A stretch of DNA of 64,000 nt from positions 1,426,001 to 1,490,000 of the forward strand of contig NC_089391.1 of NCBI RefSeq assembly GCF_003171515.1. Reading direction: 5' to 3'. Below are positions 11,354 through 63,921 of the stretch, in pieces (within the stretch, counting starts at the first letter, position 1; every line of letters begins with the position of its first letter). The position numbers were made by a program, and so were the translations under genes. The stretch is from Pyrenophora tritici-repentis. Lineage: Eukaryota; Ascomycota; Dothideomycetes; Pleosporales; Pleosporaceae. The notes beneath the pieces are model-generated. The model searched no databases, was not told the origin of the DNA, and saw nothing but the letters and a program-made list of their open reading frames with translations.

Positions 11354-11520
11354 TGTTACGGATCCATAGACTCGCTCGGCCCATGGCCCCCATATCGATA
11401 AGATCCTTATCTTATCGGACTAGCGCCTTGGCGCCCACAGCATAAGTTCGGGCTCACAACGTAGATAGCTCGATAGCTTGTATCTTGTCAAATCCAATCT
11501 TTCTTGATCGATCCCTCACA
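11354..11520 (+). repeat. 5' LTR of G1
   Basis: 167 bp, TGTTACGGATCC ... CCCTCACA, identical to 18295-18461. AGCTTGTAT at 11475-11483 is the likely start of the transcript if self-priming applies, because the primer site after the LTR is its complement. Confidence 0.95.
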
Positions 11521-11824
11521 TTATACAAGCTCCCTTTCAAGACGGGCCCTGGAAGCTCGTTCGCGAATTGTATTTTCTTGTCGCTGCGAGCGACACGCCA
11601 ACGACAGAAACACTTACGCGACGAGGATCGCATTGACTATACGTACCGCCGCAGAAGAGCCGCCGTAGTAAAGACACCTGATTGCCCAGCTGCATAGCTG
11701 TACCCACCTGCCAGAAAAGACCCGCCGCCGCAGAGTGCCGCCGCGGAAGACACTGGATTGCCCAGCTGCATAGCTGTACCCACCTGCCAGAAAAGATCCG
11801 CCGCCGCTTCTAGCGCTGCCGCCG

Positions 11825-13663
11825 ATGATGGCCCGACTAAACGAGACGAGCAAGGATGCCCACGACCAGGGTGCTCAGAACGACACACAAACCATTCCAG
11901 CAGAGTCGCACCTTGAGTACGGCGACTTTGAGAATGACGACGACCTCACCGAAGCGGAGAAGGCGACTATTAGACAGAAGCTCGCCACCCGCAACAGACA
12001 GGTCACTTTTGGCCGTGGAGACGGCCAAGGCAACAGCGAGGACGAGGGCAATGACGTCAACGCCGCTGAACGCCGACGACAGTCTTGTAGACAGTCTCTT
12101 AAGAAAGCCGTTAAGCCAGCGGATAAGACTTCTATAGAACTAGGCTACGACGACGACACGGATGACATGTATCTACGTTTTTATGGCATCCACGACAACG
12201 ATGAGCGCGAGATCCTCGCGGACATGAGGAACGTTGACGACTTCACCGCTTGCATCGCTGAACATGCTGAGAGTGTCTTTGGACACCTAGCAGATTTGCT
12301 TAGTCAGATAGCTGAACAAGCCGAACAGCTAGACCAAGCACATAATGAAGCCCGTGTACAACAAGAAGCAGCTGACGCCCGCGTGGAGCGCGCCCAGACG
12401 CAAGCTCGCGCTGCCGCCGCAGACGAGCTTGCCCAAGTCACCCAGAAATGCAACCGCATGATCACTACTAAGAACAGCTACGCTTCACGGCTAGCAGTGC
12501 TCGAAGACGAGCTTGCAGCCTCGCGCGAGTCAAACGTGAAGCTCTACTCCCAGATTAGCGACCTCTACAACGAGAGGAGTGTCCTGCAACAGCACGCGGG
12601 CGTCCCGACGAATGGAAATTTATATGACACGCGCCCAGCTCAGTTCCAGTCGTCCCCTCCTCCAATGACTGCGAACCCGTTCATTGGCACTGGCACTCAC
12701 GACTTGATGCTGCCTCCCCCTATGGCACATCATCAGAAAAACCGACCCCTAGCTCGGTCTGCTGTATCGGACAACCTCACTGCAACGGGTGCAAAGCTGA
12801 AGGATATTGACATCTTTCGCGGAGACAGCACCGACAAAGAGGACTACAAGTATTGGCGCCGCAGCGCCAGGAACTTCTTAAACAAAACTACTATCCACAC
12901 AACTGTTCAAGATCAGCTCGACTACCTGATTGACCACTTGCGAGGACCAGCCGCTGCACAGGTGGAATATAGAGCAGCACCCGGAGCTCGTAACGCCTAC
13001 GTGACAGCGGAAGAAGTCCTCACGGAACTTGATCGCATCTTTGACACGGTCGACAAGGTCACCGAAGCCAGCGCAGCGCTACACGACAGCGGCTCTGGAG
13101 GATTAAAGCAACGCGACAATGAATCGTTTAACACCTGGGTAGCCCGCTTTACCTCTACAGTCGCACCATTGAACCTGGGCGACAACGAAATGATCCAGCA
13201 CGCGATCCGACTCATGAAGTTTGGTCGTAACGCAGGTTTACAATTCCGCCATGGTGATACTTGGGAAGCGTTTGCCCAGAATTGCCGCACTCAGCAACAG
13301 CTCTCACGTCTCACCCAGAGCAGCGGAAATAATGGTACCCGAACCGGCCGCAACACGTCTAACGCTGGTGGTGGAGGTAATGGCAACGGCAACAGCAATA
13401 GCAGCGGCTCCACAACGCGTAACAACTACGGTCGCACGCGCGCGCAACTCAACGCGTTGAGTAAGCAAGGCGAGTGCTTTAAATGCGGAGGCACGGCAAA
13501 TGTCAGCGGCAAGAAACATCGTCCGACCGACGCAGACGTCCCAGCAGCCTGCAAGTCTGGCTCTATCGTGCCAGCTAGCCGCGTCCCTGCCCTCAAAGCT
13601 ACATTCACCAACGCCGCCCTCCAGGCCACAGTCGTCGATGCCACCGACGAGTCGGAAAACTAG
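11825..13663 (+). CDS. gag: Gag of Gypsy element G1
   Basis: 612 aa. An acidic N-terminal third is followed by a long coiled coil (about 145-260) and a Pro-rich linker. The retrotransposon Gag core (about 325-480, with YWRRSARNFLN and FNTWVARFTSTV) comes next, then a Gly/Asn-rich spacer and a variant zinc knuckle ECFKCGG...H...C near 560-590. It should form the particle shell and bind RNA. The frame ends at TAG 13661-13663, directly after the sequence TCGGAAAAC and before a GC-rich hairpin. Pol follows in the -1 frame. ATG 11825 is the first in frame; a second Met follows directly. Confidence 0.9.
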   Translation: MMARLNETSKDAHDQGAQNDTQTIPAESHLEYGDFENDDDLTEAEKATIRQKLATRNRQVTFGRGDGQGNSEDEGNDVNAAERRRQSCRQSLKKAVKPADKTSIELGYDDDTDDMYLRFYGIHDNDEREILADMRNVDDFTACIAEHAESVFGHLADLLSQIAEQAEQLDQAHNEARVQQEAADARVERAQTQARAAAADELAQVTQKCNRMITTKNSYASRLAVLEDELAASRESNVKLYSQISDLYNERSVLQQHAGVPTNGNLYDTRPAQFQSSPPPMTANPFIGTGTHDLMLPPPMAHHQKNRPLARSAVSDNLTATGAKLKDIDIFRGDSTDKEDYKYWRRSARNFLNKTTIHTTVQDQLDYLIDHLRGPAAAQVEYRAAPGARNAYVTAEEVLTELDRIFDTVDKVTEASAALHDSGSGGLKQRDNESFNTWVARFTSTVAPLNLGDNEMIQHAIRLMKFGRNAGLQFRHGDTWEAFAQNCRTQQQLSRLTQSSGNNGTRTGRNTSNAGGGGNGNGNSNSSGSTTRNNYGRTRAQLNALSKQGECFKCGGTANVSGKKHRPTDADVPAACKSGSIVPASRVPALKATFTNAALQATVVDATDESEN

Positions 13664-13693
13664 CCGTCCCCGGCGAAAGACGCCCCCGGGGAC
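13654..13693 (+). promoter_or_regulatory. Candidate -1 frameshift signal between gag and pol (G1)
   Basis: GGAAAAC (13654-13660, read G GAA AAC in the gag frame) is followed by a 5-base spacer containing the gag stop. A hairpin then forms with stem GTCCCCGG/CCGGGGAC (13666-13673 and 13686-13693) and a 12-base loop. Pol is open in the -1 frame through the whole signal. Element G2 has the same heptamer, the same spacer length and the same loop size at 22769-22808, with a compensatory base pair change in the stem. Confidence 0.7.
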
Positions 13694-13758
13694 CGCACCA
13701 AAATGGTCCACAGATACAGTTACAGTCACAGTCAAAGCCACAACTACCAGTCCAACCC

Positions 13759-16437
13759 TTGTTAGCGATACCCCCTATTGTTTCACCGACCCTTGATACC
13801 CAAACTACCCCGCTCACCGGAGCTACACCTAGCACTTTACGCGTTTGTTTACAAGAATTGGAGGACTGGACGCCTCCCCAGGCTATAGAGGACAGACACG
13901 TTGTCTTGAGCGCGAACACTATGGTCAAAGGCAAGCAGCTTGTCCAAGGCCAGCAGTTCGTTTTCAAGTGCAAGGTCGCCACTTCGAATAGCTATATTGA
14001 TACGGAAGCTTTGACTGACTCTGGTGCTACTGGAAACTGTATCTCCACACTATTTGCGCAACGACATAACCTGCCGACGTTTCGGCTTAAACAACCTTTG
14101 CAACTACGACTTGGCGACGGCAATTTCGCCATGGCGCCTATCACACACGGCGTCCTAGCCCCCATCTCCCACGCTGAACACGTTAGCGAGGAACTCTTCT
14201 ACAGTGTACCTATGACGACTTACGACTTTATTTTCGGCACTTCATGGCTAGAAGAGCATAATCCACACATCGACTGGAGGGAAAAAACTATGCGTTTCAA
14301 CAGCGAGCATTGCTACGCCAACTGCCTACACAAAGGCGAGCAAGTCACTGTTCGCAGCAGTCGACACCGACGGGCCGCAGCAAAAGCCAAAGAACGGAAC
14401 CCGACCTACGCGAACATGGACATACACCATGTGTCAGGTGAGGCCGCTGCCGCACTGGCATCACGACCAGAGAACGGTACTATCTGGCTGTACCCACATG
14501 ATTTTGAACAACTCGACAAAGATGACAGCGATGACGCCGACGAGAGAGCCCAGGCTAGCCGCGTCTTCGCCTCACTATTTGCCATGGACATGAACGCCCT
14601 ATCTCAGGAAGACATTGATAAGTTCCACCAGAAGCTGAACTCGCCCGCTAAAACTCGCGACGAGGTCCTAGACAAGTTGCCCGAATGGCTCCACGATCTC
14701 GCCCACCGATTTAATCCTGATCCCGCCACGACAGACTTGCCCGCTCGACGAGGCGCGGTCGACCACAGCATTGACATTATCCCCGGATCAAAACACCCAA
14801 ACGCTAAGATGTACGGCATAAGTAAGGACGAAGGCCTTGCCGTTAAAGCTTATGTTGAGGACATGAGAGGACGCGGTGAGATCCGTGAAAGCAAGTCAGA
14901 CTTCGCTTCGCCTGTGCTCGTCGTCCGCAAATCTGGAGGTGGACTCCGCATTTGCGTGGACTATAGAGCGCTCAATGCCGTCACTATCAAGAACAGGAAC
15001 GCTCCTCCGATGATTAAAGAAACGCTCGCGCGGCTAGCTAACGTCGCCTACTTCACCGTGGTCGACGTCATCGCCGCCTTTAACAAAATCCGCATCAAGG
15101 AAGGCGACGAACATAAGACTGCCTTCCTAACACGGTATGGCCTATTCGAATACTTAGTGATGCCTTTCGGACTCTGCAACGTACCAGGTACCTTTCAGGC
15201 CTACATTAACGAGGTTTTACGCGATTACCTTGACGAGTTCTGCTCTGCATACCTCGACGACGTCCTAATCTACAGCGCGTCTTTGGCAGAGCATAAGGTT
15301 CATGTCCGCAAGGTTATCGAGAGTCTAGGTGAGGCCGGACTTCATCTAGACATTGACAAGTCCGAGTTTGCCGTCCAAGAGGTGAGATACCTGGGCCTCA
15401 TTCTTACAACTGAAGGCATCAAAATGGACCCCGCCAAGGTTAAGTCAGTGCTCGACTGGGGCACCCCAACAACATTGAAAGAGTTGCAAGCATTCCTAGG
15501 TTTCGCAAATTTCTACCGAAGGTTTATTGTTGCCTTCTCTTATATCGCGCGGCCGCTCACGGATCTTACCCGCGGGACAAACGGCGACGTCAAGCTGAAC
15601 TTTCCTATCGCCCAAGGATCTGCTGCCCACGACGCATTCGAAAAGCTTAAGAAAGCATTTACCATCGCCCCGGTCCTCGCGCACTTCAACCCCGCGCTTG
15701 AGACCTGGGTCGAAACAGACTCCTCCGACACCGTCACAGCAGCCGTGCTGTCCCAAGTCCAGACTGACGGAGTGCTAAAACCAGTCGCTTTTATCTCCAC
15801 AAAGATGTCACCAGCTGAGTGCAACTATGCCATCTACGACAAGGAGCTTATGGCCATCGTCCGCGCCTTTGAGGAATGGAGACCAGAGCTGGCCGGCACC
15901 TCGGACCCGGTGAAGGTCATCTCAGACCATGCCACCTTACAGACCTTTATGGTCAACAAAGCACTCAACAGGCGTCAAGCAAGATGGGCTGAGTTTCTGA
16001 GCGAATTCAACTTTAAGATCACTTACCGACCAGGCAGACTAGGCAGCAAACCCGACGCCTTGACGAGACGCCCCGGCGACACACCCACGAACCCAAACGA
16101 TCCACGGATCATACATCAGACCCAGACGATCCTCGGCCCCGACCGCGTCGACGACGTCATCAAACGAGACACGCACACACACAACGACGCCCGACAAGCA
16201 ATTCAACTCGCGGCGCTGTTATTCGAATACGCGGAGGAGGTACAAACGCTAGCAGGCATGCTATATCTAATGAGCGAGGAGGCGTATGGCGTCGATGATT
16301 TGGTGGATGACGACTCAACCCCAGACGTAGCCTTGGACAGCCAGCCTAAGGGGGAGACAATTGAGATCCCTCACGCTGCTGCGCCAGCTTCCCTGGCACG
16401 GGTGCCGGGGAGAACGCGCCTGACGATGGACTTATGA
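13759..16437 (+). CDS. pol: Pol of G1: protease, reverse transcriptase, RNase H
   Basis: The first internal start-like codon is 13759, but the frame is open back through the gag stop, so expression by -1 frameshift is likely. Domains in order: aspartic protease with DSG (LTDS-GATGNCIS), RT with FASPVLVVRKSGGGLRICVD and the catalytic YLDDVLIYS, a connection region, and RNase H (VETDSSDTVTAAVLSQ, then YDKELMAIV). It ends at TGA 16435-16437, which overlaps the ATG of the integrase frame (ATGA). In element G2 the same region is continuous. A single base lost from the GGGG run at 16407-16410 would explain the break. Confidence 0.9.
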   Translation: MLAIPPIVSPTLDTQTTPLTGATPSTLRVCLQELEDWTPPQAIEDRHVVLSANTMVKGKQLVQGQQFVFKCKVATSNSYIDTEALTDSGATGNCISTLFAQRHNLPTFRLKQPLQLRLGDGNFAMAPITHGVLAPISHAEHVSEELFYSVPMTTYDFIFGTSWLEEHNPHIDWREKTMRFNSEHCYANCLHKGEQVTVRSSRHRRAAAKAKERNPTYANMDIHHVSGEAAAALASRPENGTIWLYPHDFEQLDKDDSDDADERAQASRVFASLFAMDMNALSQEDIDKFHQKLNSPAKTRDEVLDKLPEWLHDLAHRFNPDPATTDLPARRGAVDHSIDIIPGSKHPNAKMYGISKDEGLAVKAYVEDMRGRGEIRESKSDFASPVLVVRKSGGGLRICVDYRALNAVTIKNRNAPPMIKETLARLANVAYFTVVDVIAAFNKIRIKEGDEHKTAFLTRYGLFEYLVMPFGLCNVPGTFQAYINEVLRDYLDEFCSAYLDDVLIYSASLAEHKVHVRKVIESLGEAGLHLDIDKSEFAVQEVRYLGLILTTEGIKMDPAKVKSVLDWGTPTTLKELQAFLGFANFYRRFIVAFSYIARPLTDLTRGTNGDVKLNFPIAQGSAAHDAFEKLKKAFTIAPVLAHFNPALETWVETDSSDTVTAAVLSQVQTDGVLKPVAFISTKMSPAECNYAIYDKELMAIVRAFEEWRPELAGTSDPVKVISDHATLQTFMVNKALNRRQARWAEFLSEFNFKITYRPGRLGSKPDALTRRPGDTPTNPNDPRIIHQTQTILGPDRVDDVIKRDTHTHNDARQAIQLAALLFEYAEEVQTLAGMLYLMSEEAYGVDDLVDDDSTPDVALDSQPKGETIEIPHAAAPASLARVPGRTRLTMDL

Positions 16438-18200
16438 CAGCGATCGTAAATGCCTACCGCGTCGATCCCACACTACAAGAAATAATACGAGCAAAGGCAG
16501 ACGGCGCCCGTCACCTTCCCCACACTGTCGCCATACAAATGAAGCTGAAGCTAGAGCTACAGGACTGCGAAATCCGCAACAGTCTGGTTTACTTCCGCGG
16601 CAGACTCTTCATCCCTTACGACGACGATCTTCGCAAAGACATCGTCCGTCGGTTCCACGACACCGCCACGGCGGGCCACGGCGGCAAGCGCTCTACCTAC
16701 TACCTAGTTAGCCAACAGTACTACTGGCCGCTCATGACAGACACAGTCGCTCAGTATACCCGGAGTTGTGTAGTTTGCCGACGCGCAAAGCCATACAGAG
16801 ACCGCAAGCAGGGACTGCTGCACCCGCTCCCCGTACCGAAACGATTCTGGACTGACATTTCAGTCGACTTCATCACACCCCTGCCAGACTGTACTAGATT
16901 CGGACGCACCTACTCTCATGTCATGGTCGTGATTGACCGGCTAAGCAAGTCGCAACGGTTTATCGCCCTAGACAGCCTTGAAGTTGATGCTGTTGTCCGA
17001 GCATTTGTCGATTACGTCTGGAGAGAGGAAGGTTTCCCTACTACAATTGTGTCTGACCGAGGGTCACAGTTCGTCTCTCATTTCTGGAAGGAGCTGTGTC
17101 ATCGACTGGGTGTTACACCAAAGCTCTCTACAGCTTACCACCCAGAAACAGACGGCCAGACTGAAGTCGCCAACGCCGGACTAAAGTGTTACCTGCGTGC
17201 TTACACGAACTATATGCAAAACGACTGGGTAGACTGGCTGCCACTAGCCCAGCTCGCCATCAATAACAGAGAAAACGTGTCCTCTGGCGTCGCACCCGCG
17301 CTTGCCACCAAGGGCTACCTACCTCGCATGGGATCGGAACTAGTCACCGAAGACTCGCCCATTACCGACGCCCGTTCACGCGCAGAACAGTTGCTCCGCG
17401 AAGACGCCCGAGGCACGGTGAAAAGGATGACCGACGTTATCCGTTTCATGCAAGAAAATCTTCGCTGGTCCCAAAACAAGATGGAACACTACGCCAACCA
17501 GCACAGACAGCCCGCTCCAGACTACCGCGTCGGTGACAAAGTCTATATTGATGCCCGCAATATCCCTACGATGCGCCCGAGCCGCGGTCTCAGCGCAAAG
17601 AACCTTGGCCCATACAAAGTGCGAGCTTTGCCCAACCGATATGCAGTCGAGCTCGCACTACCAGACTGCTACAAACAAGTCCATCCAGTGTTCCACCCAT
17701 GGTTACTACACCTGGACGCCGATCAAACAGCTCGCCCAAGTGAGGGCGTCATCGCTGAGAAACACCCTGACGGAGAGCACGACTACTACGTAGACATGGT
17801 CGTCGACTGTCGCATAGATAAACGACGCAAGGACACCCTCACAAACAAGAAAGGCATGCTCCAGTATAAGGTTAAGTACACCAACTCCCCAGACTGGAAT
17901 GCCTCGCCCGCATGGCAAGACTATACAGACCTGTGGGGCGCAGAGGAAGCGGTTGAAGACTTTCACCGTCTCTATCCCGACAAGCCCCCACCTCACGAAC
18001 TGTATCGAGACCTAGCGTTGTATCTCAACCTAGTCGCCGCATATTCACTTGGTCGCGATGATGTTGAAGTTGTTAGCGTACTAGACAGTTGTGAGCTTGC
18101 CCTATCACCTTCGCATTCACTGATGGCACAGCTTGGACCTGGGAAGGTGGCACAACTCAGGACGTCTGTCTCCAAGCAGAAGCAAGGACCCGAAGGATGA
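16434..18200 (+). CDS. Integrase with chromodomain-like end (G1)
   Basis: 588 aa. H2C2 zinc-binding domain (GHGGKRSTYYLVSQQYYWP, CVVCRRAKP), then the integrase core with the D,D-35-E triad: Asp in WTDISVDFITPLP, Asp in TTIVSDRGSQFVS, and Glu in the region after AYHPETDGQTE. The C-terminal GPY/F-like segment (LGPYKVRAL) is followed by a chromodomain-like fold (MLQYKVKYTNSPDW...W, then YTDLWGAEEAVEDFH). Chromodomains of this type steer insertion towards particular chromatin. The frame is open upstream to 16365, so the ATG overlap at 16434 may be real re-initiation or the scar of a one-base deletion in pol. Confidence 0.9.
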   Translation: MTAIVNAYRVDPTLQEIIRAKADGARHLPHTVAIQMKLKLELQDCEIRNSLVYFRGRLFIPYDDDLRKDIVRRFHDTATAGHGGKRSTYYLVSQQYYWPLMTDTVAQYTRSCVVCRRAKPYRDRKQGLLHPLPVPKRFWTDISVDFITPLPDCTRFGRTYSHVMVVIDRLSKSQRFIALDSLEVDAVVRAFVDYVWREEGFPTTIVSDRGSQFVSHFWKELCHRLGVTPKLSTAYHPETDGQTEVANAGLKCYLRAYTNYMQNDWVDWLPLAQLAINNRENVSSGVAPALATKGYLPRMGSELVTEDSPITDARSRAEQLLREDARGTVKRMTDVIRFMQENLRWSQNKMEHYANQHRQPAPDYRVGDKVYIDARNIPTMRPSRGLSAKNLGPYKVRALPNRYAVELALPDCYKQVHPVFHPWLLHLDADQTARPSEGVIAEKHPDGEHDYYVDMVVDCRIDKRRKDTLTNKKGMLQYKVKYTNSPDWNASPAWQDYTDLWGAEEAVEDFHRLYPDKPPPHELYRDLALYLNLVAAYSLGRDDVEVVSVLDSCELALSPSHSLMAQLGPGKVAQLRTSVSKQKQGPEG

Positions 18201-18294
18201 GACACAACATAACTGCTCGGCATCAAGCACAGCGTCATAAAATAAAAGACATTCACGGCTTGCAGGTGCAACCGTCTTCTGAAAGGGGGGGTAA

Positions 18295-18461
18295 TGTTAC
18301 GGATCCATAGACTCGCTCGGCCCATGGCCCCCATATCGATAAGATCCTTATCTTATCGGACTAGCGCCTTGGCGCCCACAGCATAAGTTCGGGCTCACAA
18401 CGTAGATAGCTCGATAGCTTGTATCTTGTCAAATCCAATCTTTCTTGATCGATCCCTCACA
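18295..18461 (+). repeat. 3' LTR of G1
   Basis: 167 bp, identical to 11354-11520 and followed by target copy CTCGC. The polypurine tract GAAAGGGGGGGTAA ends at its first base. Confidence 0.95.
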
Positions 18462-20270: not shown

Positions 20271-20446
20271 TGTCATGGTTTGGAACCTTGGTGTTCTGAG
20301 CACGGACCACGCCGGCGCCTCGGGTGCCGAGGCCCCGCTGCCCCACACATGTATTTAATTCTACCGAAGTTTCTTAGAAACTCGGTACTGCAAAAACTTT
20401 GTAATTCAACACAGTTTTAAATATCTGATCCTGTGAGACCCTAACA
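20271..20446 (+). repeat. 5' LTR of G2
   Basis: 176 bp, TGTCATGGTTTGG ... CCCTAACA, identical to 27111-27286. It holds the putative transcript start ACTGCAAAAAC. Confidence 0.95.
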
Positions 20447-20624
20447 CGTTTTTGCAGTCCATTAAACGCCTCTGACAGCAACCTGGCGTCCTTGGCCAGT
20501 TGCTCCTAACCTGACAGCGCCTTAACTGCGCTCTGACAGCGCTCTAACAGCGCTCTAATAGCAACCCAGCGCGTGCGGCTAGTTGCAGATCCCCACAGTT
20601 CCCGCGACACGGTAGACCAACGCC

Positions 20625-22781
20625 ATGTCCACCCAGTTCCCAGACGGCAATGCCGCCGACGCGCCCCATGTGGGAGACGCCTCGGGCAGCGACGCCAACC
20701 CTACCGCCGGTGCAACGATCAGCCCCGGTAAGAGCGCGAGGTCTTTCGCTAGACCTACCGTGGCTTCCACCGCCCGCAGCAGCGCCTTGCCACGCGCTAC
20801 CGGGTCCGCCAACTTACGCCAAATCAGCAACCCAGCTGTACCTGGCGCCTTCGGAAACGAGCAGCTAGAGCAGCAGGGCTATGACGCCGACTCAGATAAC
20901 GACGAGGCCGACATTACCCAAATCCACCATCTAGTACCATCGCGCCCGTTATCACCTGTCGTAGACGCTCAAGACTCTAGCGACTCCTTTCAACCGTCCC
21001 CGCCTAACGTCACTACAACCCGCGGCCGCGCAGGCTTTCAGTACCCCGCTCTCCGACAGCGGTCGGACGCCCAGCGCACTGATAACCCCTTTACGTACCA
21101 AACAGAAGACGGCAACCATACTAGCTACGCCCTCTCTCCGCCTACATGGGACCCGCTACCCTCGCCTACGCCACGCACAGAGGGGACTACCTCAAAGCCC
21201 GTCCGCAAAGTCATTGGCTACGTAATCCCCAAAACTGACTTGCCTCAAGGCAGTCAGCCAACTCTAGCCGCCTATGAGTACGACGCCAACGGCGAGCCCA
21301 GGCTAGTAGGAGAACTTGACGAAGCTTTTGTTAAAGGCTCAACCACGGAAGCTGGAGAGAAACTCTACCAGTTCTGCTTTGACACCGTCCACACCCTACA
21401 TAACGACCTCGCCAATCTTCAAGAGCGCCTGACGGACGCTCAGGAAGACCTCATCGACGAGCGCGTCGCCAAACTCAACTCCGAAAAGCAGGTAAAGTTC
21501 CTTACAAACCAGCTTCAAGAGGTGAGAGGCAGCCTCCACGTAGCCAACCAAGACCTCCAGTCGAAACTCGACACCGCTGAGCGACGAGCCGAACGCTACC
21601 TCCAGCGCAAGGAGGAGTACAAGACCGCCCTTAACCAAGAGTCTACCGCGCACGGCGAAACCAAAGAAAAGCTTAAAGCCTATGCTAGCACCGCGCGCCC
21701 ATCTCTACGCGGCAAACCGCATGACTCCATCTCTGACGAATCAGATGGACCCGTTAGCGTACGCCGCCACCGCTCAGCTACCAAACTTAGCCCTGACGCT
21801 CCGCTGCCCGCCACAACGCAGCGACGATCTAAACAACCTGAACCCGCGGTCTTTGAGGGCCCTACAGGCACAAAGGCCTCTACCTACCAGAAATGGAAAC
21901 TCGACATGCAGAGCTGGTTCCGTGCCCATCCGTACCCTTTCGCCAACAACGAGGAGGAGCAACTAGACTACATCCGCATGAAAACCACCGGCGTAGCCTG
22001 GGATAATATCTCGAGCGGATGGTTTGTCGAAGGAGACGAGTTCCATACTGCACAAGAAGCGTGGGATATCCTCGACGCCTGCTACGGCCGTTTGAATACC
22101 CGCCTAGATGCCCACAACTTCTACGAAAAGGAAGGCTTCATGAAGCCTGGTGAGACTATCACCTCCTACCTGGCCCGCTTCAAAGCCGGCGTCGCTCCCT
22201 TGAAATGGGACGACGAGGAAAAGACTCTGCAAGCCTACAAGAAGTTGCCAGACCAGTGGCGCAGCCGAGCGGAGCACCTCATGAGCGACGACACCTTCAC
22301 CAAGGACTTTGCCAAGTTCAGCCACAAGCTCCGACACCTCGAACAACTTCACTCCGCCCTCCAGCCCTCTCACAACCCTAGCAAGGGTAATAGTGGAGGT
22401 AGCGGTCGTGGCGGCGGCGGCAATAACCGCAACCGCAATCGCAACGCCGACAACGCGCAGCCCAAAGGCAGCGGAGCCAACCAATTTATTATCAACAAAC
22501 CCTACAGGGAGCGCACTGTCATGGAGACCCAGGTCCTAGCTGAATTGGAACGCTGCTTCAAGTGCACCCGTGCAGGCCACAAGTCTAACTCCGACGACGC
22601 GCCCTGCAAGGACATGGACAAGCTCACTTCAATGGGCCGCTACCCCGAAGTCCTCACCGCCTTGAACGAAGCCCGCAAGGCCGCCGGCGTCCCTATCCCT
22701 AAGGCCGCCGTACGCATTAACGCCGTCCGAGCCCCTACTCCTCCAGCGGCCGCCTCTGACGCCCGCTCGGAAAACGAGTAG
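20625..22781 (+). CDS. gag: Gag of Gypsy element G2
   Basis: 718 aa from ATG 20625. A low-complexity Ser/Thr/Pro-rich N-terminal half is followed by a coiled coil (about 245-350) and the Gag core (about 420-590, with WKLDMQSWFRAHPYPFANNE and ITSYLARFKAGVAPLKW). A Gly/Asn/Arg-rich spacer then leads to a zinc knuckle C-x2-C-x4-H-x8-C (CFKCTRAGHKSNSDDAPC). It is related to the G1 Gag but clearly a different family. It ends at TAG 22779-22781, immediately after the same TCGGAAAAC motif seen in G1. Confidence 0.9.
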   Translation: MSTQFPDGNAADAPHVGDASGSDANPTAGATISPGKSARSFARPTVASTARSSALPRATGSANLRQISNPAVPGAFGNEQLEQQGYDADSDNDEADITQIHHLVPSRPLSPVVDAQDSSDSFQPSPPNVTTTRGRAGFQYPALRQRSDAQRTDNPFTYQTEDGNHTSYALSPPTWDPLPSPTPRTEGTTSKPVRKVIGYVIPKTDLPQGSQPTLAAYEYDANGEPRLVGELDEAFVKGSTTEAGEKLYQFCFDTVHTLHNDLANLQERLTDAQEDLIDERVAKLNSEKQVKFLTNQLQEVRGSLHVANQDLQSKLDTAERRAERYLQRKEEYKTALNQESTAHGETKEKLKAYASTARPSLRGKPHDSISDESDGPVSVRRHRSATKLSPDAPLPATTQRRSKQPEPAVFEGPTGTKASTYQKWKLDMQSWFRAHPYPFANNEEEQLDYIRMKTTGVAWDNISSGWFVEGDEFHTAQEAWDILDACYGRLNTRLDAHNFYEKEGFMKPGETITSYLARFKAGVAPLKWDDEEKTLQAYKKLPDQWRSRAEHLMSDDTFTKDFAKFSHKLRHLEQLHSALQPSHNPSKGNSGGSGRGGGGNNRNRNRNADNAQPKGSGANQFIINKPYRERTVMETQVLAELERCFKCTRAGHKSNSDDAPCKDMDKLTSMGRYPEVLTALNEARKAAGVPIPKAAVRINAVRAPTPPAAASDARSENE

Positions 22782-22808
22782 TCCCTGGCGAAAGTCGCCC
22801 CCAGGGAC
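22769..22808 (+). promoter_or_regulatory. Candidate -1 frameshift signal between gag and pol (G2)
   Basis: GGAAAAC (22769-22775), a 5-base spacer, then stem GTCCCTGG/CCAGGGAC with a 12-base loop. Relative to G1, one C-G pair has become T-A on both strands, so pairing is kept. The -1 frame over the hairpin encodes nearly the same peptide as in G1, but it meets a stop at 22841. Pol itself is open one further frame away, so one base appears to be missing between about 22798 and 22840. Confidence 0.65.
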
Positions 22809-22839
22809 CCAAGAGCCTGAGAAACTCAATAAAGAACCC

Positions 22840-25800
22840 TTGAATACACCTGAACCTACAACGCCCCCTTCTCCTACTGCCGAAGACTGCGACGACAACG
22901 ACACTGAACCTGACCCCACACTGCAAGCAATCCTGGACCGGATCAAGAACCTGGAACGCCCTGCTGCCCCACGGGTTCGCGTCTCCGCCATCGCAGCCGC
23001 CGCTATTCGTGGCAATACTTATCTCCCTATGGTAGGTCAGCAATTAGTATTCAAAGGGATGATATCTCCCTCTCAACAACCATCCTCACACGTAGAACTC
23101 ATGGGTGACTCTGGTTGTGCTTCTCTCTTCATTGATGAATCTCATGCTCGCGCACACAAATACGAATTAATTCCGCTCCAAGACCCAGCTGTCCTGGAGC
23201 TCGCAGACGGCACCCAAGTTGCCAACGTTACCCATATGACACGGGTACACGTAACTTTCGACACCCACCATGAACAAGTCCTTGCCTATGTGACCAAAGT
23301 TAGCGGAGTGCAAATGATCCTTGGCACTCCCTGGTTTCAAATCCACAACCCCCAGGTAAACTGGGACACTATGTCAATAGTATTCAACTCAGACCATTGC
23401 ATTCGCAACTGCCTAGAAAACCACAAGCCATGCATGGCTGCTAGTAGCCGACACCGCAAACACCCAGCGCCCCCAGCCTATGAGCTTAAAAAAGCTCGCC
23501 ATCCTAAGGCTCCTCAACATCCCCCGCCTATCGACATCGCTTTTATCTCAAGCCGGGTGGCCGCCATTTCAGTGACAAGAGGAGAACAGGTCTGCCTAAC
23601 CTCTATGGAAGAGGTTGAAAGACTTTGCAATATGACCGACCAAGAATGGACGGATACCCAACTGCTGCGTGCGGCAGGAGCCAAAGTCCTCCCTGAAGAC
23701 TTTGAAAAGTTTCGCGATCGAATGGAGCGCCCCCACATGAGTAAAGAGGAAATCCTGGCTAAGCTGCCAGAGGTCCTCCATCCCCTCTACCATGGCTTCG
23801 ACCCACGAGAGGCCGATGAGATCCCTCCGCAGCGAGACAAGCTGGACCACGCTATTGAAATCCAGTTAGACCCCGAAACCGGAAAACCGCCTCGCCCTTC
23901 ATCACAGCGGCTAAGGCCGCTATCCCGCGACGAAGCCCGAGCTGTGAAGCTCTACATTGACGATATGATCCGGAAAGGCCACATTGAACGTAGCACCTCT
24001 GAATGGGCTGCCCCCCTCCTAGTAGTCAAGAAACCTGGAGGAGGTATCCGAATTTGCGTGGACTATCGAGGACTTAATGCCCATACCATCAAGAACCGTA
24101 ACACCCCTCCGTTGATACGCGACATGCTCACCAAGCTATCCAAGGCCAAATTCTTCTCTAAGGTAGACGTTATCGCCGCCTTCAATAAAATCCGGATTAA
24201 AGAAGAGCATAAACACCTCTCAGCGTTCATTACGCCATACGGCCTGTACCAGTACACCGTAATGCCCTTTGGAATGTGCAACAGCCCTGGAACATTTCAA
24301 GCCTACATCAACGACGTCCTCCATGAGTACCTGGACGAATTTTGCATGGCCTACCTAGACGACGTCATCATATTCAGCGAAACAAGGGAAGAGCATGATG
24401 ACCATCTACTCCGAGTGGTCACACGCCTGTCCAACGCTGGGCTCCCCATGGACATCCTGAAATCTGAATTCTTCCAAGAAGAAGTCAAGTTTCTTGGGCT
24501 TATTATCACACCGAACGGTATAAAGATGGACCCAGAAAAGGTCAGTGCTATACAGGACTGGCTTCTACCCAAGTCCCTCAAGGATGTCCAAGCCTTCCTT
24601 GGCTTTGCCAATTTCTATCGCCGTTTTATATATGGCTTCTCTGATATCGCCAAACCTCTCACCCATCTCACCCGCGGAGATCCAAAGCTGTTTCAAATGA
24701 CCCCCGAAGCTTCGCGAGCCTTTGACCTGCTCAAGCAGGCATTCTGTAGCGAGGTGGTCCTCGCCCATTTTAACCCAGACCTCAAATGCATCCTGGAAAC
24801 CGACGCCTCTGACTACGTCTACGCTGCAGTGCTCTCCCAAATTCAAAGCGACGACACTATACGCCCTGTCGCGTACCTCTCCAAAAAGATGACTCCTACG
24901 GAGTGCAACTATGAGATCTACGACAAGGAACTGCTGGCAATAGTCCGCGCCTTCGAGGAATGGCGCCCGGAGCTCGCAGGCGCCGCCGACACAGTAGAAG
25001 TACTTACTGACCATCGAGGCCTCGAATACTTCCGCTCTAAACGCCACCTTAACCGCCGACAAGCCCGCTGGGCCGAGTTCTTAGAGGAATTCGACTTTAA
25101 AGTCAAGTATCGGCCTGGAAAACAAGGCACGAAGCCAGACAGCCTCACCAGAAGGACAGGTGACCTGCCTGAGAGTGTCACCGACGACCGCGTCCAGCAC
25201 CAGTGTCAGACCATCCTTGGCGACCACCGGTGGGATGGAGGCAGCCATGAAGCTATCCGCCTTGCTGGCCTCTGCTTAGGAGAAGCCGAGTGCGACCTGC
25301 CCTCTATCTTATCCCTCATGCATGAATCCGGAGAAGGCATGTCACGCGTGGGCACCGCCATGGTTAGGCTAGCCCGCCTCACTCTCCAAGGACAACATGA
25401 CCCTTACGACGACCTTGTAGCAGCCGATGAAATGACTACCCAAGAAATTGTCGATGCCCTCTACCCTACAGACGCCCGCCTTACCGCTATCCGCGACGCA
25501 CTCAACAACGGCCATCGACGTATCCCTCACCACCTTATTGCTGAAGGTGTGCGGTTGGAACTGGGCGATCTTGAAACCAACGCTGAGAGAAAGCTTTTTA
25601 TGCGCTATAACCGCCTTCTTGTCCCATTCAGCGAGAAACTGAGGACCCGCATTATAAAAGATATCCATGACTCCCTGCCAGGAGGGCACGGGGGTCGCAC
25701 CACAACATACCAGCAGGTGAGCCAATGGTACTATTGGCAAGGCATGACCGACACTATCGCAAGGTTCACTAACAACTGCACCACCTGCCGGCGCTCCAAA

Positions 25801-26586
25801 GTCAACCGCCACGCTAAGCATGGCCTCCTGCACCCATTGCCTGTGCCAGAGAAATACTGGACGGACATCTCTATCGATTTCATTACGCCGCTGCCACCCT
25901 CAAAGTGGTGCGGCCACTCATACCGACACATCATGGTGGTCGTGGATAGGCTGTCGAAGAAGAAGAAGTTTATCGCCATTGAGAACATGGAGGTACTAAC
26001 TATCGTCGACAAGTTTCTCGAATACATCTGGAGAGAAGAGGGCTACCCAAAGACCCTAGTTTCAGACCGAGGCCGCCAATTCACATCCCACTTTTGGCGC
26101 CGCCTTTGCGACCGCGTCGGCACAGCACCAAAGCTCTCAACTGCCTATCATCCTGAGACAGATGGCCAAACAGAAAACGCCAACGCGGACTTGAAGCAGT
26201 ACCTGCGCTCGTACGTGAACTACCTGCAGGATGACTGGGCCCAGCTCCTACCTTTAGCTGAATTCGAAGCCAACTCCGCTATAAGCTCCGCTACTGGAGT
26301 TTCCCCATTTCAAGCAACAAAGGGCTACCAACCTCGCTCCGGCCTAGAACCAGCCCACGCCATCACTAACGCCACCCCAGCTGCAGCACAGCGGCGCGCT
26401 GCTGACTCCCTCACAAACCGCATTGACGCAACCCGTCGGTACCTCCGCGATGAGATCGCCTGGACCCAGGAACGCATGAAAGACTTCGCTGATGTCCACC
26501 GCCATCCAGCCCCCGCTTCGCTGTTGGCGACTGGGTGCTCCTCAACGCTAACCATATTAAGACCGAAAGGCCAGTCAAGTCGCTAG
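22840..26586 (+). CDS. pol: Pol of G2: protease, RT, RNase H, integrase core
   Basis: 1248 aa, with the frame open upstream to the gag end. Protease-like GDSGCASLFI; RT with WAAPLLVVKKPGGGIRICVD and YLDDVIIFS; RNase H (ILETDASDYVYAAVLSQ); integrase zinc finger (GHGGRTTTYQQVSQWYYWQ, CTTCRRSK) and core (WTDISIDFITPLP, TLVSDRGRQFTS, AYHPETDGQTENAN). The frame ends about 20 codons after leaving the expected GPY/F region. The correct continuation lies in another frame from 26535. The break sits at the CCCCC run 26508-26512. All catalytic residues upstream are present. Confidence 0.85.
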   Translation: MNTPEPTTPPSPTAEDCDDNDTEPDPTLQAILDRIKNLERPAAPRVRVSAIAAAAIRGNTYLPMVGQQLVFKGMISPSQQPSSHVELMGDSGCASLFIDESHARAHKYELIPLQDPAVLELADGTQVANVTHMTRVHVTFDTHHEQVLAYVTKVSGVQMILGTPWFQIHNPQVNWDTMSIVFNSDHCIRNCLENHKPCMAASSRHRKHPAPPAYELKKARHPKAPQHPPPIDIAFISSRVAAISVTRGEQVCLTSMEEVERLCNMTDQEWTDTQLLRAAGAKVLPEDFEKFRDRMERPHMSKEEILAKLPEVLHPLYHGFDPREADEIPPQRDKLDHAIEIQLDPETGKPPRPSSQRLRPLSRDEARAVKLYIDDMIRKGHIERSTSEWAAPLLVVKKPGGGIRICVDYRGLNAHTIKNRNTPPLIRDMLTKLSKAKFFSKVDVIAAFNKIRIKEEHKHLSAFITPYGLYQYTVMPFGMCNSPGTFQAYINDVLHEYLDEFCMAYLDDVIIFSETREEHDDHLLRVVTRLSNAGLPMDILKSEFFQEEVKFLGLIITPNGIKMDPEKVSAIQDWLLPKSLKDVQAFLGFANFYRRFIYGFSDIAKPLTHLTRGDPKLFQMTPEASRAFDLLKQAFCSEVVLAHFNPDLKCILETDASDYVYAAVLSQIQSDDTIRPVAYLSKKMTPTECNYEIYDKELLAIVRAFEEWRPELAGAADTVEVLTDHRGLEYFRSKRHLNRRQARWAEFLEEFDFKVKYRPGKQGTKPDSLTRRTGDLPESVTDDRVQHQCQTILGDHRWDGGSHEAIRLAGLCLGEAECDLPSILSLMHESGEGMSRVGTAMVRLARLTLQGQHDPYDDLVAADEMTTQEIVDALYPTDARLTAIRDALNNGHRRIPHHLIAEGVRLELGDLETNAERKLFMRYNRLLVPFSEKLRTRIIKDIHDSLPGGHGGRTTTYQQVSQWYYWQGMTDTIARFTNNCTTCRRSKVNRHAKHGLLHPLPVPEKYWTDISIDFITPLPPSKWCGHSYRHIMVVVDRLSKKKKFIAIENMEVLTIVDKFLEYIWREEGYPKTLVSDRGRQFTSHFWRRLCDRVGTAPKLSTAYHPETDGQTENANADLKQYLRSYVNYLQDDWAQLLPLAEFEANSAISSATGVSPFQATKGYQPRSGLEPAHAITNATPAAAQRRAADSLTNRIDATRRYLRDEIAWTQERMKDFADVHRHPAPASLLATGCSSTLTILRPKGQSSR

Positions 26587-27091
26587 ACCACAAGAATATG
26601 GGTCCCTACCAGATTACCCGTGTTATTGACAACATGGCCTATGAGCTAGACCTGCCAGATAGCCTTAAGAACATTTTTCCCGCTTTTCATCCGTGGCTGC
26701 TCCAACCATATGAGGATGACGCTCTACCTGGACAGCCCAGAGCTAACGACAACGCTCCCCCGAAGTCCATTTGAACGATGAGGGCGACACAGAGTATGTT
26801 ATCGCTCAAGTCTTAGACTCCCGCATACGAAATACAATGAACGACCCCTATACTGGCCGCCGTGGTTGCCTCCAGTACAAAGTTGAATGGGTCGGCAACG
26901 ACCAGTCTGAAGGCTGGCAACCCTACTTCAACCTGCGCGGCAGCAAGGAGTCAGTCCAGGACTTTCACGACCGCAACCCTGGGCGCCCTGGGCCTCACGC
27001 CACCTTTCATGATTATGACGACAACGGGCAGCTTGCCGTTGCCCTGCTTTGTGTTTTCAATGGAAGTTTGAACGCTCAGTCGGGACTTTGA
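26535..27091 (+). pseudogene. Integrase C-terminus and chromodomain of G2, frame-shifted
   Basis: Two short frames complete Pol. 26535-26774 carries the GPY/F-like segment (NMGPYQITRVIDNMAYELDL) and HPWLLQPYEDD. 26771-27091 carries the chromodomain (YVIAQVLDSRI, LQYKVEWVGNDQ, GWQPYFNLRGSKESVQDFH). Each lies one base off its predecessor, and both shifts sit at CCCCC runs (26508-26512 and 26757-26761). Either the element has two one-base deletions or the runs are under-called in the assembly. Confidence 0.75.
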
Positions 27092-27110
27092 GCATTTTGG
27101 AGGGGGGACG

Positions 27111-27286
27111 TGTCATGGTTTGGAACCTTGGTGTTCTGAGCACGGACCACGCCGGCGCCTCGGGTGCCGAGGCCCCGCTGCCCCACACATGTATTTAATT
27201 CTACCGAAGTTTCTTAGAAACTCGGTACTGCAAAAACTTTGTAATTCAACACAGTTTTAAATATCTGATCCTGTGAGACCCTAACA
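27111..27286 (+). repeat. 3' LTR of G2
   Basis: 176 bp, identical to 20271-20446 and followed by target copy CATA at 27287-27290. Confidence 0.95.
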
Positions 27287-27290
27287 CATA

Positions 27291-27880: not shown

Positions 27881-28032
27881 TTCCGACACCGGGAATCGAA
27901 CCCGGGCCTTGCCGGCACTTGTTACAGTGAGCTGACTCTGCTTGAGAGCGGCAAATCCTAGCCACTAGACCCTGTTGAATTGTTAGAACGGCTGCTGGAG
28001 CTGGTGGTGGTGGGTGAAACGTACATATCGGA
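27881..28032 (-). tRNA. tRNA-Glu (CTC) with an extra mRNA-type intron at position 8/9
   Basis: Transcribed right to left. Segment 28032-28025 (TCCGATAT) gives positions 1-8. A 53-nt insert follows at 28024-27972 with GTACGT donor, TTCTAAC branch and ACAG acceptor. The rest of the tRNA continues with GGTCTAGTGGCTAGG. After conceptual removal the acceptor arm TCCGATA pairs with TGTCGGA (one T-G pair). The anticodon is CTC in the loop CTCTCA, and an ordinary 27-nt tRNA intron lies at 37/38 (27942-27916). The T arm is CCGGG/CCCGG with TTCGATT. T6 terminators follow at about 27875. Without the insert the acceptor stem has an A-C mismatch and position 8 is not T. Maturation by the spliceosome is inference. 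Confidence 0.85.
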
Positions 28033-54826: not shown

Positions 54827-55645
54827 ATGAATCCATCTCCCGCCCCTCAAGCACCCACCACCCAATCCCTCGCCTCCCGCATGAAATCCTACGAATCCAC
54901 CTTCGACCACACACTCCCCCTCACCAGCCCCATCATCCTCCGCCTCGACGGCCACGGTTTCTCGCGCTTCACCGCTCACTTCGCACGCCCCTTCGACCAA
55001 CGCATCCACCTAGCCATGACACGCACCAGCAGCGATCTCCTCAGCTACTTCCCGTCCGCCACACTCGCCTACACACAATCCGACGAAATCACGCTCGTCT
55101 TCCCCTCCGGCGTTCAAACCTTCAACTCGCGCGTTCAGAAACTGTCTTCCATTGCTGCAAGCTACTGTTCCGTACGCTTTAACAAGCACCTAAGTGCCGC
55201 TTTGCGCGAACTAACTGAGCCGCGTGTTAGTGGGGATGTGGAGGAGTGGTTGGGAACGGCGCATTTCGATGCGCGGTTTTTTCCGGTCCCGAATGTCGAG
55301 GAGGCGCTGAATAATTTGATTTGGAGGTGTCGGAATGATGCCGTGAGGAATGCGGTTAGTGGGTTTGCGAGAACCATGTATACGACGGCGGAGATGCATG
55401 GAAAAAAGACTAATGAGCTGATTGAGATGATGTTGCAGGATAAGGGAGTTAGGTTTGAGGAGGCGGTGCCTAAATGGGCGATTGAGGGATGCTTGATCAA
55501 GAGGGAGCAGTATGAGCATGAGGGCTTGAATATGAAGACTGGGGAGAAAGAGAAGACGTTTAGGACGAGGACGCGAGTGGAAGAGAGGGGCGTAAGAGAG
55601 TTTAATGATGAAGGGTTAAGGCTGATCACAGACAAATATTGGTAG
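54827..55645 (+). CDS. Thg1-like 3'-5' polymerase (tRNA-His guanylyltransferase family)
   Basis: 272 aa from ATG 54827, one exon. The palm-like fold motifs are IILRLDGHGFSRFT with metal Asp41, LAYTQSDEITLVF with Asp86/Glu87, and the downstream HFDARFFPVP...NNLIWRCRNDAVRNAV block. The opening SLASRMKSYES and the TQSDEI form resemble the Thg1-like proteins (TLPs) more than eukaryotic Thg1, which has an HIN(C)N signature I do not see. Thg1 adds G-1 to tRNA-His; TLPs repair 5'-truncated tRNAs in a template-dependent way. A longer form from ATG 54689 would start MICQLIRPLPRRLRGVQSAL, which looks like a mitochondrial presequence. A tRNA-Pro gene lies 207 bases downstream on the other strand. Confidence 0.85.
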   Translation: MNPSPAPQAPTTQSLASRMKSYESTFDHTLPLTSPIILRLDGHGFSRFTAHFARPFDQRIHLAMTRTSSDLLSYFPSATLAYTQSDEITLVFPSGVQTFNSRVQKLSSIAASYCSVRFNKHLSAALRELTEPRVSGDVEEWLGTAHFDARFFPVPNVEEALNNLIWRCRNDAVRNAVSGFARTMYTTAEMHGKKTNELIEMMLQDKGVRFEEAVPKWAIEGCLIKREQYEHEGLNMKTGEKEKTFRTRTRVEERGVREFNDEGLRLITDKYW

Positions 55646-55851
55646 TTAGATGCACGTTCTTCCCAACGTAGAACGTTGATGGCAGTCTATACGCATCAAA
55701 ACCGTGCCATTTGAAAATATAGAGAATTGAAGTTACAAAATCCTACACAAATAGCTAATATCATGTGAATATATTGGCAACAAAAAAAAGGCAGAGCAGC
55801 GAGTGGATCTGTCATGACCTAGCTTCTCTGCTAGAGCAAAAAAAGAAGATG

Positions 55852-56071
55852 GGGCCTGACCGGGATTCGACTGTACGCTTATTAGAATTCATGTACAAGA
55901 TATCGAATCTTAATGGGTGAACTTACACCCGGGGCCTCCTGCAGAATAGGCTTGTCTCAACTGGTGAAGGTCAAGAACTCCCCTAATAAACTGTTAGGAA
56001 TTGTTCGGTTGGCTAGTTGGATAGTGGTGATGTCTTACAAAGCAGGAATCATACCACTAGACCATCAGGCC
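55852..56071 (-). tRNA. tRNA-Pro (TGG) with two mRNA-type introns and one tRNA intron, copy 1
   Basis: Read right to left. Exon 56071-56039 ends CCTGCTTT (position 34). Insert A, 56038-55983 (56 nt), has GTAAGA, CCTAAC and TTAG. Then come GGG (35-37), an ordinary 36-nt tRNA intron (55979-55944), T38 and stem GCAGG. The T arm starts CCGGGT and is cut by insert B, 55926-55871 (56 nt: GTAAGT, TCTAAT, ACAG), then resumes TCGAATCCCGG. Conceptual removal gives acceptor GGCCTGA/TCAGGCC (7 of 7), discriminator C, box A GGTCTAGTGG, anticodon TGG and T loop TTCGAAT. These are standard fungal tRNA-Pro features. Oligo-T follows near 55842. Read without the inserts it would be miscalled as Thr (TGT) with a broken T arm. 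Confidence 0.85.
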
Positions 56072-56632
56072 ATAATGACTGGGTCATTGATTGATGGTAA
56101 TTTGTGTGTTTTGCTGGATTATTAAGGCGAGGAAAATGGCGTGGAGAATTGCTTGAAGCGAGGGCGGCGCCGTGGGCTCTTGGGTCGTTACGTATGAGGT
56201 TTGGATGAGGGGTAAGTGGGCGGGCGGTGTCTAAGCGAAGTATGTAGTCCGTATTCCCCCACCTGGCGCCCTTTGACGCGAGATCTTGGCGACGGAGAGC
56301 TCTCCGGGCGTTGTGGAAGTATATCATCTAAATTTGAGCCCTTATCCATCGTCTGAGTTGTACTGTATACGCATGCATGCCTACTCTTGCAGATTTCAAC
56401 AAGTAAATTAGGGGGATGATAATCCCACACCTACTCAATGACTTTTGTGCTAATCACTGCAAGTTTGAAACCCTTCTCAATCAACATCCTAGTATTAGAA
56501 GTCCTCGCACAAAGAGTTTGGAAATATTAATAAATTCATTAAACCTCCCAACTCCGCGCTTAATATCAATGACTGTGAAAAATCACACACGTTTCCATCA
56601 TCATTAACTCGAACAACAATCACCCAACCATG
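56072..56632. other. Intergenic region, 0.56 kb
   Basis: 5' flank of the tRNA-Pro gene and 3' flank of the GEN1-like gene. No other feature is visible. Confidence 0.5.
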
Positions 56633-63722: not shown

Positions 63723-63921
63723 GGGCTCAACCGGGATTTGACTAACACATGTTAGAGGTTGATATACTGGAGATTCGAACGCTGGGACTTACACCCGGGA
63801 CCTCCTGCACTCGTGTTTTCTGAATAACCCCTAATAATTTGTTAGAATTGATTGCTGTCTTGGTATGGAACCAATGTTGCAAACTTACAAAGCAGGAATC
63901 ATACGACTAGACCATTGAGCC
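63723..63921 (-). tRNA. tRNA-Pro (TGG) with two mRNA-type introns and one tRNA intron, copy 2
   Basis: Read right to left. Exon 63921-63889 ends CCTGCTTT. Insert A, 63888-63831 (58 nt), has GTAAGT, TTCTAAC and TTAG. Then come GGG, an 18-nt tRNA intron (63827-63810), T and GCAGG. Insert B, 63792-63742 (51 nt: GTAAGT, CTCTAAC, TTAG), splits the T loop at 54/55. Conceptual removal gives acceptor GGCTCAA/TTGAGCC (7 of 7), discriminator C, anticodon TGG and T arm CCGGG-TTCAAAT-CCCGG. The acceptor stem differs from copy 1 by compensatory pairs, and insert sequences differ while insert positions are the same. The D loop has TCGTA where copy 1 has TGGTA. T7 terminators follow near 63705. Confidence 0.85.

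Follow-up and report, generated by a model that had tools for sequence, protein, structure and literature searches.

What kind of gene is a tRNA gene whose anticodon and T loop are each broken by a sequence resembling an mRNA intron? The question is raised by a locus on the minus strand of the 64,000-nucleotide stretch of Pyrenophora tritici-repentis DNA analyzed here (hereafter the window), in which the initial annotation had recognized a tRNA-Pro gene with two such inserts, named A and B, and a third, canonical tRNA intron. By letter-by-letter inspection, we verified the coordinates, length, donor, branch motif, and acceptor of insert A, which splits the TGG anticodon, and likewise those of insert B in the T loop, and the canonical intron was found at 37/38, where its placement agrees with the unsplit Pro-AGG genes (Table 1). 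Joining the four exons (33 + 3 + 17 + 19 nt) yields a complete product of 72 nt with full acceptor (7 bp), anticodon (5 bp), and T (5 bp) stems, an anticodon loop reading TTTGGGT, and a T loop reading TTCGAAT; the discriminator base is C, and both it and the acceptor stem fit tRNA-Pro as had been proposed. ARAGORN called no tRNA at this locus.

Table 1. Coordinates within the window of the two split tRNA-Pro(TGG) genes and associated elements
Feature	Position	Strand	Details
tRNA-Pro(TGG) gene, copy 1	55852..56071	minus	exons 56039-56071, 55980-55982, 55927-55943, 55852-55870
Copy 1 exon 1	56039-56071	minus	3' end CTGC TT T(34)
Copy 1 insert A, spliceosome-type intron, 56 nt	55983..56038	minus	34/35; GTAAGA...CCTAACAGTTTATTAG; donor GTAAGA, branch CCTAAC, acceptor TAG
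Copy 1 exon GGG (positions 35-37)	55980-55982	minus	
Copy 1 canonical tRNA intron, 36 nt	55944..55979	minus	37/38; from position and comparison with unsplit Pro-AGG genes
Copy 1 exon	55927-55943	minus	ends CCGGGT(54)
Copy 1 insert B, spliceosome-type intron, 56 nt	55871..55926	minus	T54/T55; GTAAGT...TCTAATAAGCGTACAG; donor GTAAGT, branch TCTAAT, acceptor CAG
Copy 1 last exon	55852-55870	minus	TCGAATCCCGGTCAGGCC-C
7-T run, pol III terminator-like	55838..55844	minus	downstream of copy 1
CATCAA leader motif	56091..56096	minus	common to other nuclear tRNA genes
tRNA-Pro(TGG) gene, copy 2	63723..63921	minus	exons 63889-63921, 63828-63830, 63793-63809, 63723-63741
Copy 2 insert A, 58 nt	63831..63888	minus	34/35; GTAAGT, TCTAAC, TAG
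Copy 2 canonical intron, 18 nt	63810..63827	minus	37/38
Copy 2 insert B, 51 nt	63742..63792	minus	54/55; GTAAGT, TCTAAC, TAG

We consider it very probable that this locus and others like it are working nuclear tRNA genes, and that their transcripts contain, besides the ordinary tRNA intron, spliceosomal introns of the U2 type (GT-AG). A second tRNA-Pro(TGG) gene in the same window has introns at the same three positions and the same mature length of 72 nt. The mature parts of the two copies are identical at 63 of 72 positions. Because the identity of their introns (68% for A and 63% for B) exceeds that of shuffled sequences (means of 51% and 50%, with 95th percentiles of 57% and 56%), the A introns of the two copies are related to each other but much diverged, and so are the B introns. 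All stems are complete in both copies, and acceptor pairs 4:69, 5:68, and 6:67 differ on both sides between them with pairing retained. Cloverleaf and splice signals are thus kept between diverged copies, and the three-intron layout has been maintained while the intron bodies drifted. Copy 2 carries a C in place of the usual G18 in its D loop and may for that reason be weak.

The split tRNA-Pro(TGG) gene is one of a class, which the initial annotation had not noticed. In the genome searched, an assembly of 40.9 Mb with 41 contigs in which C41 was treated as mitochondrial because of its many tRNAs, we found a total of eight split tRNA genes on five contigs, carrying 10 spliceosome-type inserts; the six outside the window are Pro-CGG, Ser-TGA, two Leu-AAG, Leu-TAG, and Gly-CCC. 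Genes split at 54/55 were recovered by a search for GTAAG..YAG preceding TCRANNCC, which gave 29 matches compared with 40 in a reversed control. Two of these matches are the window genes, and 4 of 15 examined proved to be tRNA genes, namely Leu-TAG (L068), Leu-AAG (L069 and L071), and Gly-CCC (L070); the other 11 had no tRNA exons on inspection. The remaining two genes were found without an intron pattern. Ser-TGA (L090), a 30-bit match to a tRNA covariance model, is cut at 13/14 in the D arm relative to unsplit Ser-AGA, and Pro-CGG (L098), which came to light because 30 nt of it are identical to the 3' part of joined Pro-TGG, is cut at 20/21 in the D loop.

Further pattern searches were performed. 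One returned 13 matches (control 3), of which five were known tRNA genes and four, when examined, were not tRNAs; three of those four carry introns whose removal opens a reading frame. Two others gave nine matches (control 8), including four known genes, and 10 matches (control 6), including the Pro-CGG gene. The exact exon and donor pattern of Pro-TGG occurred zero times in prokaryote contigs and zero times in viral contigs, a result that is uninformative on fungi. Note that the eight split genes, set against the 28 unsplit non-repeat nuclear tRNA genes found (8/36), do not constitute a census, as the search was enriched for split genes. Similarly, a genome-wide search with RF00005 scored 63 candidates and missed Leu-AAG (L032), Cys (L038), and all tRNA-Pro genes, so absences from its output are uninformative.

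When the joined sequences of the eight split genes were submitted to ARAGORN with the canonical intron left in, the expected amino acid was called for seven and the expected anticodon for five. Pro-TGG copy 1 was called Pro(ggg), copy 2 Ser(tga), and Gly-CCC Gly(tcc). Manual folding gives complete stems and loops, and we therefore read these miscalls as errors of intron placement; the ARAGORN calls nevertheless do not amount to a clean confirmation.

The surroundings of the split genes resemble those of RNA polymerase III transcription units. A run of six to eight Ts begins 4 to 41 nt downstream of every one of the eight genes. The motif CATCAA lies within 45 nt upstream of six of the eight (it is absent from Leu-TAG and Ser-TGA) and of 12 of the 23 unsplit genes tested, compared with 2% of 8528 background windows; the 23 are drawn from the 28 unsplit genes, with L021, L085, L086, L088, and a tRNA-Glu gene of the window left out. 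The tetranucleotide TTTT, a stop signal for this polymerase, occurs in none of the 10 introns, compared with 3.2 expected from shuffles (P = 0.009).

Exact intron-free homologues exist in the same genome. The unsplit Leu-AAG gene L032 and the joined sequence of the split gene L069, each with its canonical intron, are identical at all 98 nt. As far as the T run, their trailers show a single base difference, and little is shared outside the transcript. The remaining difference is a 53-nt GTAAG..CAG insert that is absent exactly from L032, which is the trace expected from intron loss or gain at splice sites. A more distant Leu-AAG copy, L071 (95/98), also has an intron at 54/55, and therefore loss in L032 would be the shorter account, although the two are not separable for these twins. 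Given loss, retention of the canonical intron in L032 would place removal of the spliceosomal intron from the RNA before that of the tRNA intron. Likewise, the 3' 30 nt of Pro-CGG equal joined Pro-TGG across 54/55, an uncut D arm matching that of Ser-TGA is seen in Ser-AGA, and, precisely at the joints, joined sequences are equal or similar to unsplit homologues. We also observed by eye that the 3' trailers of L032, L069, and L071 are conserved. A hairpin can form in each (TCTGGC-TTYA-GTCAGA in L032 and L069, TCCGGC-TGCA-GTTGGA in L071), with one pair changed in a compensated manner, and it is followed by the shared sequence CCCAGGTTCTTTTTTT.

For the proline codons, the count of intact genes had been proposed as a check on the locus, and the D-arm searches found no uninterrupted tRNA-Pro(TGG) gene, within a tRNA census that is incomplete. 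A D-arm pattern with up to two mismatches gave six matches (control 1), comprising three Pro-AGG genes with the canonical intron only, the two split TGG genes, and L045, a two-mismatch match that lacks an ARAGORN call and for which exact search found no acceptor complement within 500 nt; a split tRNA at L045 is possible. The same D arm with a TGG signature and up to three mismatches gave eight matches (control 4), namely the same five genes and three sequences that have no ARAGORN tRNA call and in which no tRNA was visible on inspection. These searches should reveal any tRNA-Pro gene whose D arm is contiguous and close to the consensus, and genome-wide they gave neither a Pro-TGG nor a Pro-CGG gene in uninterrupted form; a strongly diverged ordinary Pro gene could have escaped them. 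Under the standard rules of decoding, inosine at position 34 of a tRNA with the anticodon AGG reads CCU, CCC, and CCA, and CCG needs UGG or CGG. As every Pro-TGG and Pro-CGG gene recovered is split, decoding of CCG would be the most dependent on the spliceosome. For Leu-AAG, an unsplit gene exists, and its split counterparts may be dispensable.

These observations bear on whether the split genes are instead dead copies carrying inserted intron-like (introner-like) elements while ordinary genes serve the cell. Introner-like elements are known in Dothideomycetes, some of the families here do have unsplit members (for example, Leu-AAG L032), and the odd D loop of Pro-TGG copy 2 and the incomplete census both leave room for such a reading. 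Inactivated genes are nevertheless hard to reconcile with the intact stems of the two Pro-TGG copies and the compensation at three of their acceptor pairs, with retained leaders and T runs, or with splice signals that have been retained while the intron bodies diverged. Since the searches above found no ordinary Pro-TGG or Pro-CGG genes either, we regard dead copies as quite improbable, even though insertions in the D and T arms of eukaryotic tRNA genes have mostly been taken for pseudogenes (PMC4090602).

The reading that spliceosomal introns interrupt functional genes also draws on the inserts themselves. Their lengths are 51, 52, 53, 53, 56, 56, 56, 58, 65, and 68 nt, and each of the 10 conforms to GTA(A/C)G..CTAA(C/T)..YAG. 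The donor is GTAAGT in eight, GTAAGA in one, and GTACGT in one; all have a YAG acceptor and a CTAAC or CTAAT with the branch A 10 to 18 nt before the intron end. The inserts occupy four positions (13/14, 20/21, 34/35, and 54/55), and none is located at 37/38. In 200,000 shuffles of each insert of copy 1, donor, branch, and acceptor arose jointly once for A and never for B, and the products of their separate rates are 2.4e-6 and 7.0e-6, for a pattern that was fixed after the inserts had been inspected. Six of the 10 inserts lie in genes that were picked by a splice-like pattern or by the initial annotation. The four found without an intron pattern (in Pro-TGG copy 2, Pro-CGG, and Ser-TGA) obey the same signals, with a joint chance of roughly 1e-6 to 6e-6 each, again for a pattern chosen once the inserts were known. 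Intron-like motifs are as numerous in the window as in its reversed control (45 and 45).

The proposal that 56 nt lies in the size range of mRNA introns here was upheld, on a small sample of five mapped introns: two of 47 and 46 nt in a bleomycin hydrolase gene of the window, and three frame-opening introns of 45, 51, and 61 nt elsewhere in the genome. The bleomycin hydrolase reading frame is 93% identical to its counterpart in P. teres f. teres 0-1, 93% to that in Decorospora gaudefroyi, and 90% to that in P. seminiperda; with the identity of Thg1 given below, this assigns the window to Pyrenophora or a near relative. One of the introns of the bleomycin hydrolase gene ends in AAG and the other begins with GTACAA, and therefore the tRNA introns have the stronger consensus of the two sets. 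Self-splicing group I or group II introns were rejected, as 51 to 68 nt is far below either catalytic core and Rfam at gathering score matched nothing in the 64-kb window.

Could the tRNA splicing endonuclease remove the extra introns, as is thought to occur in archaea, nucleomorphs, and red algae, with the GT-AG ends being incidental? Canonical endonuclease introns do occur in these genes as well, and in the archaeon Pyrobaculum islandicum the tRNA-Pro(UGG) is interrupted at 25/26 and 56/57 in addition to the canonical site (PMC4090602). However, under one strict geometry (intron nucleotides 2 to 5 against exon nucleotides 2 to 5), all 10 inserts form only one or two of the four pairs of a bulge-helix-bulge, and an endonuclease would leave the signals common to all 10 unexplained. 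We therefore judge this route very improbable. Chance or an artefact of the one assembly examined is a negligible prospect, given an arrangement common to eight genes on five contigs, chance values of order 1e-6 per insert, and a matched unsplit twin.

If the inserts are spliceosomal introns, processing would proceed as follows. RNA polymerase III would produce a transcript spanning everything between the leader and the T run, both included, and the nuclear spliceosome would then remove the introns of 51 to 68 nt, restoring the anticodon, D arm, or T loop. The 37/38 intron would be excised by the tRNA splicing endonuclease and ligase, probably after the spliceosome has acted, and the product would be used in translation.

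The D arm (A box) is contiguous in both TGG copies. Their B box, like that of every gene split at 54/55, is broken by the intron, and in Ser-TGA it is the A box that is broken; weaker transcription is to be expected from such interruptions. TTCRA occurs inside four of the six introns at 54/55, compared with 0.84 expected (P = 0.004), and in none of the other four introns; in the window, it is found as TTCGA at 55903-55907 in insert B of copy 1 and at 63775-63779 in insert B of copy 2. This enrichment was recognized in retrospect and is no more than suggestive. Two U6 genes, L099 (C2:1204189) and L100 (C10:3490170), are without an intron and have the B-box-like motifs GAGTTCGAATC and GTGGTTCGAACACC downstream of the T run, with GAGTTCGAATC lying 3' of the T run of the best-scoring U6 gene. 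It follows from these downstream motifs that displacement of the B box can be tolerated by RNA polymerase III promoters in this genome. Separately, in Ser-TGA (L090/L105), the intron end TTTGCAG and the exon start AGTGG nearly recreate the interrupted A box.

The closest known parallel is the U6 gene of fission yeast, which is transcribed by RNA polymerase III and has an mRNA-type intron thought to derive from reverse splicing (PMC10484740). As in that gene, a spliceosomal-type intron would reside in an RNA polymerase III transcript. A title in the reference list of the same paper reports that Schizosaccharomyces U6 introns match the tRNA B box (PMC10484740), which the TTCRA motifs described above loosely parallel. 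Unlike U6, which is itself part of the spliceosome, the hosts here are tRNA genes for four amino acids, interrupted at four positions beside endonuclease introns.

Additional tRNA introns outside 37/38, up to three per gene, are known from archaea, nucleomorphs, and the red alga Cyanidioschyzon merolae (PMC4090602, PMC3978253). The initial annotation had taken three introns of two mechanistic kinds in one tRNA to be undescribed; three introns in one tRNA are recorded in archaea and a nucleomorph, but they are not described as spliceosomal in the available text of that source (PMC4090602). Those introns are associated with bulge-helix-bulge motifs and the tRNA endonuclease, whereas the inserts reported here lack the motif in the one geometry tested and have GT-AG ends and a branch site. 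Canonical eukaryotic introns at 37/38 are present as well, in both Pro-TGG copies and in the unsplit Pro-AGG genes, and the inserts are unlike these in both position and spliceosomal signals.

Spliceosomal introns also occur in the nuclear rRNA genes of lichen-forming ascomycetes. Those introns likewise reside in a structural RNA of Ascomycota, but in rRNA made by RNA polymerase I rather than in tRNA made by RNA polymerase III.

In the available portions of the literature, non-canonical introns are called rare in eukaryotic genomes and endonuclease routes are described, with the word "spliceosome" absent from the accessible text (PMC4090602); the tRNAscan-SE 2.0 paper treats non-canonical introns in archaea (PMC8450103), and a 2026 review describes tRNA splicing as spliceosome-independent (PMC13149111). 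Among the matches listed from open-licence PubMed Central, none reported that nuclear tRNA genes contain spliceosomal introns. Such introns in RNA polymerase III transcripts are known from U6, although tRNA genes appear to be new as their hosts.

A broader conjecture, to which we give roughly even chances, is that in this lineage spliceosomal introns have spread into a considerable fraction of tRNA genes, that some decoding, above all of CCG, has come to depend on the spliceosome, that B-box function has partly moved into the intron (compare fission yeast U6), and that the Leu-AAG twin is a fossil of spliceosome-first processing. If tRNAs do need both machineries, mRNA splicing would be tied to decoding, and the spliceosome would be able to act on a second kind of folded RNA polymerase III transcript besides U6. 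Such tRNAs would also account for tRNA genes overlooked by standard finders, and pairs of almost identical genes of which one has the intron and the other lacks it would offer a direct test bed for intron gain and loss.

Several other features were noted in the course of the analysis. A gene for tRNA-His guanylyltransferase (Thg1) occupies positions 54827-55642 (+) of the window, about 200 bases from the split tRNA-Pro gene, and its product is 88% identical to a Pyrenophora teres f. teres protein over 81% of the query; we claim no link between the two genes. When long introns were allowed, ARAGORN called a tRNA-Glu(CTC) with a 27-nt canonical intron at 27881-27979, which the default scan had missed. 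Two Ty3/gypsy-like elements (11354-18461 and 20271-27287) have short terminal repeats (167 and 177 nt); within each element the repeats match at 100%, and the elements are therefore probably young; two tRNA-Ser(cga) calls by ARAGORN in or at the repeats of the second element look false. Elsewhere in the genome, 84-nt tRNA-like copies with the same score of 46.1 bits (family G000) are present at 19 places, for example L013, L028, L034, and L091; the four copies examined were called tRNA-Arg(TCT) by ARAGORN, and the family is perhaps a tRNA-derived repeat.
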